Below are positions 21,834 to 53,789 of a stretch of 64,000 bases of DNA, piece after piece. The stretch lies in assembly GCF_003343245.1 (NCBI RefSeq), contig NZ_CP024901.1, positions 2,108,001 through 2,172,000 on the forward strand, written 5' to 3'. The notes under the pieces were generated by a model that made no database searches, was not told where the DNA came from, and saw nothing but the letters and a program-made list of their open reading frames with translations. The stretch is from Photorhabdus laumondii subsp. laumondii. Its GTDB lineage: Bacteria > Pseudomonadota > Gammaproteobacteria > Enterobacterales > Enterobacteriaceae. The translations under genes were made by a program, and so were the position numbers. Position 1 is the stretch's first letter. Each line of letters opens with the position of its first letter.

Positions 21834-21921
21834 GGAGGGGTGGCCGAGCGGCTTAAGGCAGCGGTCTTGAAAACCGCCGATGGGAAACCATCCGAGAGTT
21901 CGAATCTCTCCTCCTCCGCCA
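21834..21921 (+). tRNA. serT: tRNA-Ser (anticodon UGA)
   Basis: 88-nt class II tRNA: acceptor GGAGGGG pairs with CTCCTCC, D-arm GGCCGAGCGGCTTAAGGC, anticodon arm GCGGT-CTTGAAA-ACCGC with TGA, a long variable arm (GATGGGAAACCATC) and T-arm GAGAG-TTCGAAT-CTCTC, with CCA encoded. It matches E. coli serT, which also follows the tusE region. An integrase remnant follows at once, so its 3' end has served as an attachment site. Confidence 0.97.
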
Positions 21922-22026
21922 ATTCTTTCTAACTTTATGTTTATAAACAATTTTCCTAAGATTCACACCTTACTGTTGCACATGAGTGTACCACATCGTT
22001 CCAACGGTGCTGGAGAATTCATTCGT

Positions 22027-22221
22027 ATGTGTACTCATCTTTATCGTCGTGGGCTAATGTATTATTTCCGCCGGAGAATACCTGCTGATTTGGTACAAGT
22101 TTGTAGCAAATCTGAAATAGTTCAATCTCTTAAAACAACCAATAGGGTTGAAGCGCTGATACGTCTTCGTCAACTTGATGTAAATTTAGACCTAAAGTTT
22201 GCAGAAATGCGTCTTGGGTAA
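22027..22221 (+). pseudogene. N-terminal stub of a tyrosine-recombinase integrase
   Basis: About 64 codons: MCTHLYRRGLMYYFRRRIPADLV...EIVQSLKTTNRVEALIRLRQLDVNLDLKFAEMR, the N-terminal arm-binding motif found in many phage/island integrases (LYRRG..YYFRRRIP). The catalytic domain is missing. It lies 105 nt behind tRNA-Ser in the orientation typical of island integrases, so it marks an element that once used this tRNA. Confidence 0.75.
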
Positions 22222-22958: not shown

Positions 22959-22960
22959 TA

Positions 22961-24057
22961 TACCCGTAATCATTGAAGATGCTTGATTTTATCCGAAATG
23001 GAGATCATTATCCTCGCTATGAAAATATTTATTACATCAGAACAAAAAATCAAACTTGAACGTCTTCACGACACCACTCGTGATGGTCAGGTACGAGACA
23101 GAATAAAAGCGATCCTTCTGGCTTCTGAAGGGTGGAGTTCTGTGATGATAGCCCAGGCATTGCGACTCCATCAGACCACCGTTGACCGCCATATCAGTGA
23201 TTACCTTAATCAAGGTAAACTTAAATCTGATAATGGAGGGTCTGATAGTTTGCTTTCCCGAGAACAAACTGATTTTTTAATCAATCACTTATCTCAACAT
23301 CTTTTCCATCACACCCATGAAATCGTGGCCTATGTTGCTCAGCTCTGGAATATTACCTTTAGCATTCCCGGCATGAATAAATGGCTACACCGTCAGGGTT
23401 TTTCTTATAAAAAACCTTGTGGCGTCCCTCATAAATTCGACGCAGAAAAACAGCGACAATTTATTGAATATTATGAGAATCTTAAAGTCACAGCGAAAGA
23501 CGAACCCATCCTTTTTCTTGATGCTGTTCACCCGACTCAAGGCACCAAACTCAGTTATGGCTGGATGCGAAAAGGCGAGAAAAAAACCGTCAAAACAACA
23601 GGAAGCCGGACTCGCCTGAATATATTGGGTGCCCTCAACCTGAATGCCATTGGTCGTACGGTGTTCCAGGAATATCAGACCATCAACGACTACAACATTT
23701 GCTGTTTTTTCAATGAAATAAGAAAGTCTTATCCTGACTATCATCAAAAAATTCACCTTATTGTGGATGGAGCGGGTTACAACAAAGCTCATCTTGTGAA
23801 GGAGTGGGCTTATGTTAGCAATATTGAGTTACATTACCTTCCTCCCTATAGTCCAAATTTAAACCCGATAGAACGATTATGGAAGGTCATGAATGAACAG
23901 GTTCGAAATAACCGTTATTTCGCGGATAAACATGAATTTCGAGACAACGTCTTCAAATTTTTCACCACAACGCTACCGGATATAGCGGACTCGCTGATGT
24001 CTAGAATTAACGACCATTTTCAGGTGCTAAAAACTGCATCTTGAAGTTTCTTGGGTA
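22961..24057 (+). mobile_element. IS630-family insertion sequence with ERIC-like ends
   Basis: 1097 bp. It begins TACCCGTAATCATTGAAGA and ends TCTTGAAGTTTCTTGGGTA, flanked on both sides by TA (22959-22960 and 24058-24059), the IS630/Tc1-mariner target duplication. It contains one full transposase. The left end matches the right end of the ERICs at about 20 of 25 positions, and the right end matches the left end of the ERICs at 20 of 25. An ERIC copy starts 44 bp downstream. Confidence 0.88.
23019..24044 (+). CDS. IS630-family transposase
   Basis: 341 residues from the ATG at 23019 (a TTG at 22983 would add 12). The N-terminal helix-turn-helix (EGWSSVMIAQALRLHQTTVDRHISDYL) is followed by a winged part and the DDE domain: first Asp in PILFLDAVHP, second Asp in HLIVDGAGYNKAH, Glu in PPYSPNLNPIERLWKVMNE. 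All three catalytic residues are present and there is no frameshift, so the protein may be active. It should act on the TATACCC...CAAGATGC ends of its own element and possibly on ERICs. Confidence 0.93.
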   Translation: MKIFITSEQKIKLERLHDTTRDGQVRDRIKAILLASEGWSSVMIAQALRLHQTTVDRHISDYLNQGKLKSDNGGSDSLLSREQTDFLINHLSQHLFHHTHEIVAYVAQLWNITFSIPGMNKWLHRQGFSYKKPCGVPHKFDAEKQRQFIEYYENLKVTAKDEPILFLDAVHPTQGTKLSYGWMRKGEKKTVKTTGSRTRLNILGALNLNAIGRTVFQEYQTINDYNICCFFNEIRKSYPDYHQKIHLIVDGAGYNKAHLVKEWAYVSNIELHYLPPYSPNLNPIERLWKVMNEQVRNNRYFADKHEFRDNVFKFFTTTLPDIADSLMSRINDHFQVLKTAS

Positions 24058-24101
24058 TAGTTAAATCCAGAGTGGTTAAATTCTATTTTTATACAGTAGC
24101 T

Positions 24102-24226
24102 ATACCCTACGGATTTCAAGATGCATCGCGACGGCAAGGGAGCGAATCCCCGGGAGCATAGATAACTATGTGACTGGGGCGAGTGAGTGCAGCCAACAAA
24201 GAGGTAACTTGAAAGATAACGGGTAT
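24102..24226 (+). repeat. ERIC element, copy 3
   Basis: Complete ERIC: ATACCCTACGGATTTCAAGA at the left, GTGACTGGGGCGAG core, GATAACGGGTAT at the right. It lies 44 bp from the right end of the IS630-family element and just upstream of the orphan gene at 24248. Confidence 0.93.
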
Positions 24227-24247
24227 ATAACGAAAGGAGATTGAAAC

Positions 24248-25269: not shown

Positions 25270-25410
25270 ACCTTATTTTTACCCTTTTTTTGAAGGGAGT
25301 TGTAATTTATTGATTTTATGGATAAATTAATTATCTCTTATAAAAAGGGTTTTTCACTTTTTAGTAGTTATGCTATTTAAAAATCAGCAGGTTAAAGTTA
25401 ATATGTAACA
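25270..25410 (+). promoter_or_regulatory. leader of CRISPR array 2
   Basis: Inverted repeat ACCCTTTTTT (25281-25290) / AAAAAGGGT (25342-25350), then TTAATATGTAACA directly before the first repeat. Its spacing to the array is identical to that in the other two leaders. Confidence 0.8.
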
Positions 25411-25558
25411 GTGCACTGCCGTACAGGCAGCTTAGAAAAACAACAAAACCAACATGTCCTCCACCAATATGTGCACTGCCGTACAGGCAGCTTAGAAAAA
25501 GCATCCCGATCACTTCGGTAATATGAATGAGTGCACTGCCGTACAGGCAGCTTAGAAG
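25411..25558 (+). CRISPR. CRISPR array 2, type I-F, 3 repeats / 2 spacers
   Basis: Three 28-bp repeats at 25411, 25471 and 25531 with two 32-nt spacers. Repeats carry GTG at positions 1-3 and the last repeat ends AAG, both features shared with array 1. The final repeat abuts the remnant of cas1 with no gap. Confidence 0.97.
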
Positions 25559-25692
25559 CGGCAATGGCTGGAGAAGATGAACAGGAGTTTCGCCAACGCT
25601 GTATTAGTGGATTTCAAAAAGCTGATGCTTTAGACACCATGATTGAGGCACTACAAACAACTGCGCAACAATTGAGTCAGGTGGCACGATGA
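25559..25692 (+). pseudogene. cas1: 3' remnant of cas1 (last ~43 codons)
   Basis: From the end of array 2 to the TGA at 25690-25692, one frame reads AAMAGEDEQEFRQRCISGFQ and continues KADALDTMIEALQTTAQQLS, ending QVAR. It fits the helical C-terminus of type I-F Cas1 in character, and the gene order cas1-cas2/3 with an ATGA overlap (stop of this frame, start of cas3) is the normal I-F arrangement. No start codon with a ribosome site and no catalytic residues remain. Identity as cas1 is inferred from position and the tail sequence. Confidence 0.7.
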
Positions 25693-28600
25693 ATATTCTC
25701 TTAGTTTCCCAGTGTAATAAACGAGCGCTAACAGAAACCCGCCGAATTTTGGATCAATTTGCTGAACGTAAAGGTGATAGAACTTGGCAAACGGCTATCA
25801 CCCAGGAAGGTTTAAATACTTTGCGTAAGTTATTGCGTAAAACGGCACGTCGTAATACGGCGGTGGCTTGCCATTGGATAAAAAGTGGTGGTCAAACTGA
25901 GCTGTTATGGATAGTCGGGAATTTGCGGCGCTTTAACTCACGAGGAGTTGTACCTACAAATACAACACAACGTGATGTGCTGAAAAGTCAGGATGAAAAT
26001 CATTGGCATAGTGTAGAGGCTATCAGCTTATTGGCAGCGATTGCCGGGTTATTTCATGATTTTGGTAAAGCTAATACATTATTCCAGCAAGGTTTACAGG
26101 GTAATGGGCGGTTTCAACCGTACCGACATGAATGGGTGTCTTTGCGGCTGTTTCAGGCATTTGTTGCGGAACAAGATGATAGGGAGTGGATGACTTCGTT
26201 GAGTCAGATTGAGCCTAGTGATGAGGATAAGATTCTTTCCCGTTTGGTTAAGGATGATATCGATAAAAAATATGCAAACCCTTTTGTTAACTTACCGCCA
26301 TTGGCAACCACTGTCGCTTGGCTAATCCTCTCTCATCATCGTCTTCCTGTTTATCCTAGTTATGACGATCGATATGTACGCAGACCACAATTAAAAGATA
26401 TTGATAGTTGGCTGATTAACCACTTAGAACCGTCATGGAACTCAATCAACATGGATAATAAGGTCTGGAGTGATCAGGATAAACGTGATGTCTGGACATT
26501 CCCAAATGGTACACCTATCCGTAGTCAGACTTGGCGTCAGAAAGCACAAAAATTTGCGCAAAGAGCGCTGCAATCAACGTCATTAGTGCAATATGGCAAT
26601 CTGAACCAGCGTTTCACCAGTCATATGTCTCGACTGGTTTTAATGCTGGCCGATCATCATTATTCATCGTTACCTGCAACTTTGGGTTGGCAGGATGTTA
26701 ACTATGGGGTATTTGCCAATACTGATAGAACCACCGGTAAGTGCAAGCAGCGATTAGATGAGCACAATATTGGTGTTGGACAGAATGCTTTACTACTGGG
26801 GAGAAGTTTGCCACATATTCGTAAAACGCTGCCTGCGATTACCCGGCATAAAGGATTTAAACAACGCAGTAAAGATGAAAAATACCGTTGGCAGGATCAG
26901 GCGTTCTATGTCGCATGTGCTTTACGCGAACGTTCAGTAGAACAGGGCTTTTTTGGCATTAATATGGCTTCTACTGGTTGTGGTAAAACTTTTGCTAATG
27001 CACGCATCATGTATGGATTAGCTGATGAAAAACAAGGATGCCGTTTCTCTATCGCTTTGGGGTTAAGAACGTTAACGTTACAAACCGGTGATGCGTTACG
27101 TAAAAGATTGCATTTAGAAGAAGATGATTTAGCGGTACTGATTGGCTCGCAGGCAGTGAAAGAATTACATCAACTCCGCCAAAAGGCGCTTGAGCCTGAT
27201 GTGGGCAGCATATCCGCGGAAGCGTTATTTGCTGAACACCAGTATGTTAGTTATGACGGTAGCTTAGATGATGGGCGTCTGAGTCATTGGTTACGTAAAG
27301 ATAATAAACTTAATAAGCTGCTTAGCGCACCTGTACTGGTGGCGACCATCGACCATTTAATTCCAGCTACAGAAGGTATTCGTGGTGGAAAGCAAATTGC
27401 ACCTATGTTGAGGTTACTCACTTCTGATCTCGTGTTAGATGAGCCTGATGATTTTGATATTAACGATTTGTCGGCTTTATGCCGATTAGTGAACTGGGCA
27501 GGATTATTAGGTTCGCGGGTATTGCTTTCATCTGCCACATTACCACCTGCGTTGATTCAGGCATTGTTCAATGCTTATCGTGCCGGACGCCAAGATTATC
27601 AATTAGCATGTGGTCAACCTGGTGCTCCGGTGAATATCTGTTGTGCTTGGTTTGATGAATATGAAACAACGCAACAGGATGTGGTCAATGCATATCAGTT
27701 TCAGGAACAGCATAATATTTTCGTTAATAAGCGTATTGGCAGGCTTAAAAAAATAGTGCCATTGCGTAAAGCTGAACTTGTGCCGATTATTTCTGAAAGT
27801 CGTAAGATTAATGATGTTATTAATACTATCGCCGAAGTGATGCATCACTCTATATTGAAGTTGCGTGAGGAGCATCATCAAACTCATTCATCGGGTAAAA
27901 CCGTCTCTATTGGTTTAATCCGTATGGCAAATATTGATCCATTGGTTGCTGTTGCACAGCGGTTATTACAAATGCCATCTCCTGAAAATGTGCGCATCCA
28001 TTATTGCGTTTATCACAGTCAACATCCTATGGCGATACGTTCTCATCTTGAACATCGGCTGGATTCCACATTAACACGATACGATGAAGAAGAGTTGTGG
28101 CAGGTGGCGGAAATTCGCAAAGTATTAGAAGAGACATCGGAAAGGGATCATATTTTTGTAGTAGCGGCAACTTCTGTAGCTGAAGTTGGCCGAGATCATG
28201 ATTACGATTGGAGTATAGCTGAACCCAGCTCAATGCGTTCATTGATACAACTTGCCGGACGTATTCAACGTCATCGACGAAAAGAACCACGGGAGCCTAA
28301 TCTGCATATTCTGGCGAAAAACTATAAGGCACTTAAAGCGACTGATTTAAAACATCCGGTTTATTGTCGCCCAGGGTTTGAGTCGAAAGATTATCTTTTT
28401 GCTAATCATGATTTACATGAATTACTGGAACCTTATCAATATGAACTAATCAGTGCATTGCCGAGAATAAAGGAACGCGATAATGCTGGAGATAGTTCAC
28501 CTTTTGAAAATTTGGTCGATCTTGAACATCAACGTTTATGGGAAGAACTTCAAGGTGGCTCTGATAATAAACACGGTTACTGCTCAGCTCTTTGGTGGCG

Positions 28601-28970
28601 AGAACAGGCTTCATGGTGTGCAGAATTACAACGCCATAAACCATTTCGTCAATCAGAACCTGATGAACTACATTATTTGTGGCTTGGAGAAGAGGGTGAA
28701 GAAGCGAAGTTTGTGGCTCTGGACAGCGGTCAGGCAGGGATAAAAGAAAGCGACACGTTTGACTATGTGCCAGAATTAGAGTTTGCACTTGGTGTGAGTG
28801 CTTGGATTGAACTTGATACTGAGACGATTTACCAGAATTTGGCTGATACAAATGAAATGGAGTTAAAAAATGTAAGCCAACATTTTGGTGAGATTCGTCT
28901 TAGGAAGAAAGATGACGGAGAAGCATGGCGTTACCATCCATTTTTAGGGGTGTTTGGAGAAATTGGTTGA
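25689..28970 (+). CDS. cas3: Cas2-Cas3 fusion, type I-F nuclease-helicase
   Basis: 1093 residues. Residues 1-~95 form the Cas2-like domain typical of I-F (MNILLVSQCNKRALTETRRI; TELLWIVGNLRRFNSRGVVP). Next comes the HD nuclease domain with LAAIAGLFHDFGKANTLFQ and HEWVSLRLF, then the SF2 helicase with Walker A in NMASTGCGKTFANARIMY, a DEAD-like box in LVLDEPDDFD, motif III in LSSATLPPAL and motif VI in LIQLAGRIQRHRR. It degrades DNA bound by the Csy complex; in complete systems it also joins Cas1 for spacer uptake. All domains look intact. The next cas gene, csy1, is 1033 nt away because of an insert. Confidence 0.95.
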   Translation: MNILLVSQCNKRALTETRRILDQFAERKGDRTWQTAITQEGLNTLRKLLRKTARRNTAVACHWIKSGGQTELLWIVGNLRRFNSRGVVPTNTTQRDVLKSQDENHWHSVEAISLLAAIAGLFHDFGKANTLFQQGLQGNGRFQPYRHEWVSLRLFQAFVAEQDDREWMTSLSQIEPSDEDKILSRLVKDDIDKKYANPFVNLPPLATTVAWLILSHHRLPVYPSYDDRYVRRPQLKDIDSWLINHLEPSWNSINMDNKVWSDQDKRDVWTFPNGTPIRSQTWRQKAQKFAQRALQSTSLVQYGNLNQRFTSHMSRLVLMLADHHYSSLPATLGWQDVNYGVFANTDRTTGKCKQRLDEHNIGVGQNALLLGRSLPHIRKTLPAITRHKGFKQRSKDEKYRWQDQAFYVACALRERSVEQGFFGINMASTGCGKTFANARIMYGLADEKQGCRFSIALGLRTLTLQTGDALRKRLHLEEDDLAVLIGSQAVKELHQLRQKALEPDVGSISAEALFAEHQYVSYDGSLDDGRLSHWLRKDNKLNKLLSAPVLVATIDHLIPATEGIRGGKQIAPMLRLLTSDLVLDEPDDFDINDLSALCRLVNWAGLLGSRVLLSSATLPPALIQALFNAYRAGRQDYQLACGQPGAPVNICCAWFDEYETTQQDVVNAYQFQEQHNIFVNKRIGRLKKIVPLRKAELVPIISESRKINDVINTIAEVMHHSILKLREEHHQTHSSGKTVSIGLIRMANIDPLVAVAQRLLQMPSPENVRIHYCVYHSQHPMAIRSHLEHRLDSTLTRYDEEELWQVAEIRKVLEETSERDHIFVVAATSVAEVGRDHDYDWSIAEPSSMRSLIQLAGRIQRHRRKEPREPNLHILAKNYKALKATDLKHPVYCRPGFESKDYLFANHDLHELLEPYQYELISALPRIKERDNAGDSSPFENLVDLEHQRLWEELQGGSDNKHGYCSALWWREQASWCAELQRHKPFRQSEPDELHYLWLGEEGEEAKFVALDSGQAGIKESDTFDYVPELEFALGVSAWIELDTETIYQNLADTNEMELKNVSQHFGEIRLRKKDDGEAWRYHPFLGVFGEIG

Positions 28971-40421: not shown

Positions 40422-40462
40422 ATAGTTGTTTCTCCGAATAGAAGGAAGCGGATAGGTCGTTT

Positions 40463-40587
40463 ATACCCGTTATCCTTCAAGTTGCCTCTTTGTTGGCTGC
40501 ACTCACTCACCCCGGTCACATCGTTATCTGTGCTCCCGGGGATTCGCTCCCTTGCCGTCGCGATGCATCTTGAAATCCATAGGGTAT
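40463..40587 (-). repeat. ERIC element, copy 4
   Basis: Complete ERIC in inverted orientation: ATACCCGTTATCCTTCAAG at the left, CACCCCGGTCACAT core and the complement of ATACCCTATGGATTTCAAGA at the right. It stands about 40 bp upstream of the iolG-like gene, within its 5' untranslated region if the promoter is at the palindrome. Confidence 0.93.
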
Positions 40588-40662
40588 ATTGTTGCAGTCA
40601 ATTCTTTAGTGTTTGCCAGTTAGCCTTGGTTATTGTCGTATACCTGTTATAGGAAATATTTG

Positions 40663-49408: not shown

Positions 49409-49534
49409 TATACCCTATGGATTTCAAGATGGATCGCGATGGCAAGGGAGCGAATCCCCGGGAACACAGATAACGATGTGACCGGGGTGAGTAAGTGCAG
49501 CCAACAAAGAGGCAACTTGAAAGATGACGGGTAT
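49409..49534 (+). repeat. ERIC element, copy 5
   Basis: Complete ERIC (ATACCCTATGGATTTCAAGA ... GATGACGGGTATA) ending 29 nt before the csaA start, so it lies in the csaA promoter or leader. Confidence 0.93.
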
Positions 49535-49563
49535 AATGACTTCGCACTAAAGGAGAAGAATAT

Positions 49564-51435: not shown

Positions 51436-51563
51436 TATACCCTATGGATTTCAAGATGGATCGCGACGGCAAGGGAGCGAATCCCCGGGAGCATAGAGAA
51501 CTATGTGACCGGGGTGAGTGAGTGCAGCCAACAAAGAGGCAACTTGAAAGATAACGGGTATAA
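51436..51563 (+). repeat. ERIC element, copy 6
   Basis: Complete ERIC (ATACCCTATGGATTTCAAGA ... GATAACGGGTATA) between convergent higA and the POT transporter, ending next to the transporter stop. Confidence 0.93.
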
Positions 51564-53105: not shown

Positions 53106-53789
53106 CTAAGTTTTCCTATAAGACTACACTCTAAGAGTGCAGTGTGTGTGACAAATAAAGCTTTTAAAAAGCTCTTTTAAATTTAGGTTTAGAGCAAACA
53201 AAAAAGCCACGTTTTTATTAAATAATGTCCTATCTTGTTAATATATTTTTAACATATTTTTCGATCAATTTTATTAACAAGTAGGATATCTCTTACTTTA
53301 TATTCCATATTTCAGAGCAAAATCCGACATAAATCTCATTTCTCATAATTAATAGGCTAAAATGAGGATAAAACCTATTGACTTATTTCTATTTATATTC
53401 GATGTTTTTTTATGGAAAAAATATTTTAAAATAATAAATTAAATAATAACGGTAATATATACCCAATGGATTTCAAGATGCATCGCGACGGCAAGGGAGT
53501 GAATCCCCGGGAGCATAGATAACTATGTGACCGGGGTGAGCGAGCGCAGCCAACAAAGAGGCAACTTGAAGGATAACGGGTATATAAGGTATCTTTTCAA
53601 AGGCTAGATATTAACGGTAATAATGAAGGGTAAGAAAAGTAACGTGATTTGATTGTCAATTTAGTATTTATTTTGAAATTTTAAATGAATCCTTATTTCT
53701 TATATAAAAATTGGAAAAAAATTAAATTAAAAAATATGGCATCAGCATTGAAATGAGATAGTCAATTATTGAGGGATACCAAAGTGATT
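53106..53789. other. gene-free AT-rich region with ERIC copy 7
   Basis: About 680 bases between the POT gene and lpxL. It holds the POT promoter, AT-rich DNA and ERIC copy 7. No coding frame seen. Confidence 0.45.
53458..53584 (+). repeat. ERIC element, copy 7
   Basis: Complete ERIC (ATACCCAATGGATTTCAAGA ... GGATAACGGGTATA). Confidence 0.93.

Follow-up and report, generated by a model that had tools for sequence, protein, structure and literature searches.

ERICs are, with high probability, MITEs whose ends are recognised by a CCC-type IS630 transposase. What we observed is that the two kinds of element have shared ends, that the TA is duplicated at an ERIC site, that their target preferences are similar and that the IS carries an intact DD34E frame. 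For Photorhabdus, our analysis confirms that ERIC and IS630 share their ends, which has been known since 2018 (PMC6267812, in the accessible part of that paper).

The window, by which we mean the whole stretch of 64,000 nucleotides that was analysed, corresponds to positions 2108001-2172000 of a genome consisting of a single contig of 5,687,677 bases. It holds an IS630 element at 22959-24059 with a single intact transposase frame and five full ERIC copies with TATACCC inverted ends:

22959 to 24059, plus strand: CCC-type IS630 element with ends TATACCC...GGGTATA, 1101 bases counting both flanking TA
22983 to 24044, plus strand: frame of the IS630 transposase, starting at TTG and 353 aa long (NF033545, DDE_3)
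22959 to 22983, plus strand: IS630 left end, 20/25 identity with the ERIC end A consensus
24035 to 24059, minus strand: IS630 right end, 20/25 identity with the ERIC end B consensus
24101 to 24227, plus strand: ERIC of MITEPlu5 type, 127 bases, running from end B (24101) to end A (24227)
40462 to 40588, minus strand: ERIC, full length
49409 to 49535, plus strand: ERIC, full length
51436 to 51562, plus strand: ERIC, full length, used as the search query
53458 to 53584, plus strand: ERIC with an empty, single-TA site in four other Photorhabdus genomes

The transposase matched NCBIfam NF033545 with 250 bits (3.4e-74; cut-off 100) and Pfam DDE_3 with 131 bits (3.2e-38; cut-off 28.6). IS630 family transposases have a catalytic triad with DD34E spacing, and here the triad is D180, D262 and E297 (353-aa numbering), with 34 residues between D262 and E297; the ATG at 23019 is the counterpart of the annotated start of ISEc40. 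The IS and the nearest ERIC do not abut, with 41 bases between them. Near the IS, a tRNA-Ser (21834-21921) is overlapped by a 113-aa frame (21880-22221) that had no NCBIfam match, and this overlap is a possible integration site. On the other side, three CRISPR-type repeats spaced 60 bases apart (25399-25557) lie next to a cas3 of type I-F, whose frame at 25689-28970 is intact (TIGR02562, 1465 bits).

ERICs are abundant in this genome, with 631 first-look candidates, 40 of which were scored. In an 864-kb sample, 82 of 94 near-complete matches were 127 bases long, and the RNAalifold consensus of 26 sequences was a long stem-loop of 30 base pairs. We dropped an assignment of ERIC to the Rfam family V_AS5, as the score was 16 bits against a family cut-off of 96. 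At least 29 copies in the Photorhabdus genome were 98% identical to the query, and the accessible part of PMC6267812 reports 552 complete MITEPlu5 copies in TT01, with 47 copies being indels between TT01m and DJC; these near-identical copies and indels indicate that movement in Photorhabdus has been recent.

We derived a consensus for the ERIC ends from 93 end pairs of the 864-kb sample, calling the GTTATC side A and the TATGGAT side B. The left end of the IS agreed with end A at 20 of 25 positions and with end B at 16, and the right end agreed with end B at 20 and with end A at 17; a direct reading against the neighbouring single ERIC gave 19/25 and 20/25. This bears out the sequence-only reading, which had put the likeness at about 20 of 25 at both ends. 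The match also persisted against shuffled ends, a check which that reading had proposed: with TATACCC fixed and positions 8-25 permuted, the window IS scored 26 out of 36, a value reached by 0 of 200,000 shuffles (mean 10.5, largest 22). A relative of the IS with a 64%-identical protein scored 23/36 (reached by 1 of 200,000 shuffles). The same reading had called for a comparison with unrelated IS630 elements, and the AATAA-type IS630 of this genome scored 11/36, which is chance (137,960 of 200,000 shuffles), whereas the window IS stood far above it. Among 354 non-ERIC-like TATACC sites in the sample, two reached 14/19, and both were right ends of this IS. The left end also scores 14/19 and is absent from this list because its likeness to end A places it at the ERIC-like cut-off. 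The sequence-only reading had further claimed that each IS end matches its ERIC end in the same polarity; the match of both ends stands, but the polarity part is weak. Ends A and B differ at 7 of 25 positions, where 9 agreements were found in the matched and 2 in the swapped arrangement (two-sided P = 0.065), so that a match "in order" between the ends is at most weakly suggested by the sequences.

The genome contains 28 IS copies of the same length (1101 bases), with TA on both sides in 28/28, in agreement with the common TA flank that had been noticed in the window; intact frames of the window-type IS likewise number 28. At the left end, 27 copies had identical outer 60 bases and the remaining copy was one position off, and the 25 bases of the right end were the same in all 28. 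Copies of this IS lacking ERIC-like ends, which would have spoken against the proposed relationship, were thus not found among the 28, the ends of which are near-uniform. Inside the element, 20 of the 28 copies (L009-L028) have 44-46 differences from the window IS within element bases 61-250, a block that encodes the N-terminal helix-turn-helix region and follows the identical first 60 bases. In 50-base windows, the block of L009 is 84-96% identical to the ISPlu3-like relative, and from these sequences it looks like a domain swap in L009-L028. As the swapped form makes up most copies, this suggests that end recognition is tolerant. A second copy at L021 (about 746 bases) is an internally shortened IS that keeps both ends, abuts an ERIC at end A and is of a size between IS and MITE.

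In named genomes, relatives of the IS were found at 438 loci, the best 80 of which lie in Photorhabdus, Klebsiella, Pectobacterium, Kluyvera, Vibrio, Grimontia, Colwellia and Fukatsuia. Ends were examined in 57 of these 80; the other 23 are all from Candidatus Fukatsuia except one from P. khanii (L200). Among the 57 examined loci, most of those with two ends had a left end near TATACCCGTGATCATTGAAGATGC and a right end that was TATACCCnnnnAACTTCAAGATGCAG-like or had TTGAAG replacing TTCAAG, and some lacked one end or were more divergent, with Kluyvera and V. mytili diverging at the left. We then compared 15 IS end pairs with 74 distinct ERIC end pairs. The IS pairs were chosen by hand, excluding loci without an end, the P. 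thracensis variant of the ISPlu3-like ends, and the Kluyvera and V. mytili loci (L159 and L161), the best left-end candidates of which were unlike the rest. The ERIC pairs came from 140 near-complete ERICs of other genomes, with 99 kept (length 123-131 and no more than about one mismatch to TATACCC at either end) and 41 dropped. The average score was 22.0/36, and 0 of 5000 shuffles, which took every fourth ERIC pair, were as high (mean 9.6, largest 17.7). The polarity difference across taxa was 1.76, equalled in size by 1328 of 5000 shuffles and hence not significant. Judged by their sequences, ERIC-like ends are a mark of an IS630 subfamily of Gammaproteobacteria, to which ISEc40 of E. coli belongs. 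By eye, some Vibrio ERIC B ends resemble the right ends of Vibrio IS. We do not claim a lineage-by-lineage co-evolution of ERIC and IS ends, as per-lineage averages gave no clean separation. In P. asymbiotica, one ISPlu3-like copy (L136; protein identity 65%) is directly bordered by an ERIC on both sides.

ISEc40, a RefSeq name found among the matches listed, has about 73% DNA identity over the whole window IS. Of 5426 complete E. coli genomes, 554 contain a near-full relative, with coverage of at least 80%, and 5376 contain ERICs. Against the published E. coli ERIC consensus, the ends of one ISEc40 copy agreed at 19 and 18 of 25 positions (swapped 17 and 17), those of a second copy at 19 and 17 (swapped 17 and 16), and those of a Salmonella plasmid copy at 19 and 19 (swapped 17 and 18). 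Among plasmids, a relative of the IS at E 1e-60 was encoded in 242 of 72,556 records, 145 of them from Salmonella. In 5432 E. coli records, no best ERIC match reached 95% identity to the published consensus, so recent amplification was not seen there, distance from one consensus being a rough sign of ERIC age. We found no link between ISEc40 and ERIC in the open-access literature searched. Four papers there name ISEc40, and in the one that also mentions ERIC, the latter appears as ERIC-PCR and ISEc40 in an unrelated table row.

We also determined how the two elements are distributed. In a sample of 246 genomes of the family, 150 had ERIC (model R1) and 11 had the IS at E 1e-60. ERIC was present in 11/11 IS-bearing and 139/235 IS-lacking genomes (P = 0.008), and the IS went undetected at this threshold in 139 of the 150 ERIC-bearing genomes. 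This co-distribution is possibly confounded by reduced genomes, and we therefore do not take it as evidence. Among 229 genomes of the order outside the family, 12 had the IS, 40 had ERIC and 3 had both, with no association between them (3/12 versus 37/217, P = 0.44). Of 20 genome entries picked for carrying the IS, two of which (G374 and G479) look like one genome, 19 had ERIC matches. All seven Vibrio genomes examined had them, numbering 1, 2, 3, 4, 24, 28 and 89, and one genome with four intact IS copies (G034) had no ERIC match. The 12 Photorhabdus genomes compared had between 16 and 631 ERIC candidates and between 0 and 32 IS matches, and the correlation between the two numbers that the sequence-only reading had proposed to look for was not found (Spearman 0.37, P = 0.23). 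A weak correlation could have escaped notice, since these genomes are species representatives and often drafts, the ERICs are first-look candidates and fragments are counted among the IS matches. One draft (G496) had about 235 ERIC candidates and a single IS match with four stops, and another (G494) had about 174 candidates and no IS match at E 1e-60; some IS copies may be absent from such draft assemblies. Even so, the presence of well over 100 ERIC candidates in each of these two genomes, where no intact IS was detected, argues against tight present-day coupling.

For the ERIC at 53458-53584, we found a clean empty site in four of 11 Photorhabdus relatives (G465, G495, G496 and G497). The empty site has one TA, and the window has TA, 123 bases and TA. 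This is the duplication for which a comparison of empty and filled sites had been suggested. G494 carries the ERIC at the same site, and the remaining six of the 11 relatives had no joint match of both flanks. Elsewhere in the genome (L080; G000 5114118-5114613), an ERIC is nested in another ERIC at an inner TA, which is duplicated; nearby, a full ERIC precedes the right half of a further ERIC, which is interrupted at that same TA and of which no left half was seen. A further nested ERIC occurs at L003.

The 28 IS copies strongly favoured the target TATATA, and 70 ERICs (those of the 93 with TATACC and GGTATA ends and 30 bases of flank) favoured it more weakly. The AATAA-type IS630, with 13 copies and also TA on both sides, had a preference about equal to that of ERICs, so the preference does not single out the CCC-type transposase. 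It has a bearing on why IS copies sit close to ERICs. Specific targeting of ERICs by the IS might be read from the 7 of 28 copies that are either at an ERIC terminus or 2 bases away from one, as against an expectation of 0.4 when every intergenic TA of the sample is weighted equally. Given the TA-TA context, however, 4.0 are expected (P = 0.075), and in the window itself the two elements are apart. We consider such targeting very unlikely and do not claim it; TATATA targeting largely explains the placement. Among other IS, one of three ISPlu3-like and one of 13 AATAA-type copies abut an ERIC.

As the ends of ERIC are nearly the same as those of IS630, ERIC very probably borrows the IS630 enzyme for its movement. 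The CCC-type transposase would recognise both ERIC ends and cut the element at TATACCC...GGGTATA, and the cut element would be pasted into a TA, preferably within TATATA, with duplication of the TA. From sequence we infer that this transposase acts in trans on ERICs, binding and moving them, and in the accessible parts of the cited papers mobilisation is deduced in the same way. The ends may instead have converged on a general IS630 rule of TA and a short motif, with nothing specific to ERIC. The TA flanks and TATATA preference of the AATAA type would fit such a rule, but its ends match ERIC at chance level and the window IS is far above chance at positions 8-25. This control refutes convergence as a full explanation, and we regard such convergence as extremely improbable. 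ERICs and the IS could also have a common ancestry, the present transposase no longer moving ERICs and their spread being past or due to another IS630-type enzyme. This would accord with the lack of a significant correlation in number, with the many ERIC-bearing genomes in which no IS was detected, and with E. coli ERICs that look old by the rough measure of distance from the consensus (0/5432 records at 95% or above). Against it stands the recent movement of ERICs in a Photorhabdus genome with 28 intact IS frames, and we consider it unlikely. The reading of ERICs as MITE-like passengers of this transposase, as first proposed from the window, is supported by the ends and the TA duplication and remains probable on that ground.

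A concrete partner element for ERIC had been thought new in the sequence-only reading, but a 2018 paper had already described this likeness in the same genome. PMC6267812, in its accessible part, describes MITEPlu5 as related to ERIC in P. luminescens TT01m (accession CP024901) and as similar in its ends and TA duplication to the CCC-type IS630 elements ISPlu3, ISPlu8 and ISPlu19 (Figure 5). Genome, repeat, IS type, end similarity and TA duplication are thus the same in that system (TT01m and DJC) as here. The typical length given there for MITEPlu5 is 123 bases, against 127 here including both TA, and otherwise nothing essential differs. The same paper gives MITEEc1 as the ISfinder name of an ERIC-type element, and the accessible parts of PMC10903355 and PMC11434687 file MITEEc1 under the IS630 family. 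This is the same repeat family and the same IS family as for ERIC here; those parts name no partner element, whereas ISEc40 is a candidate found in our analysis. A system alike by its description is RUP with IS630-Spn1 in Streptococcus pneumoniae, a small repeat flanked by TA, with ends matching those of an IS630 element and with movement in trans proposed from sequence (PMC2229807, accessible part); the host differs.

How such repeats move was named as a question for future work in the 2007 review (PMC2229807, accessible part), and the 2018 paper (PMC6267812, accessible part) answered it by sequence likeness. Our analysis adds ISEc40 as a candidate, and it limits the claims by its negative results for copy-number coupling, for polarity and for targeting specific to ERICs. 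We offer it tentatively, as a possibility that we hold to be less likely than not, that a single old subfamily of CCC-type IS630 elements, tolerant in its recognition of ends, carries ERICs as passengers throughout Enterobacterales and Vibrio, and that living members such as ISEc40 could still move the inactive-looking ERICs of E. coli. As a named E. coli candidate with a similar end pair, ISEc40 would bring the question within reach of tests in laboratory strains.
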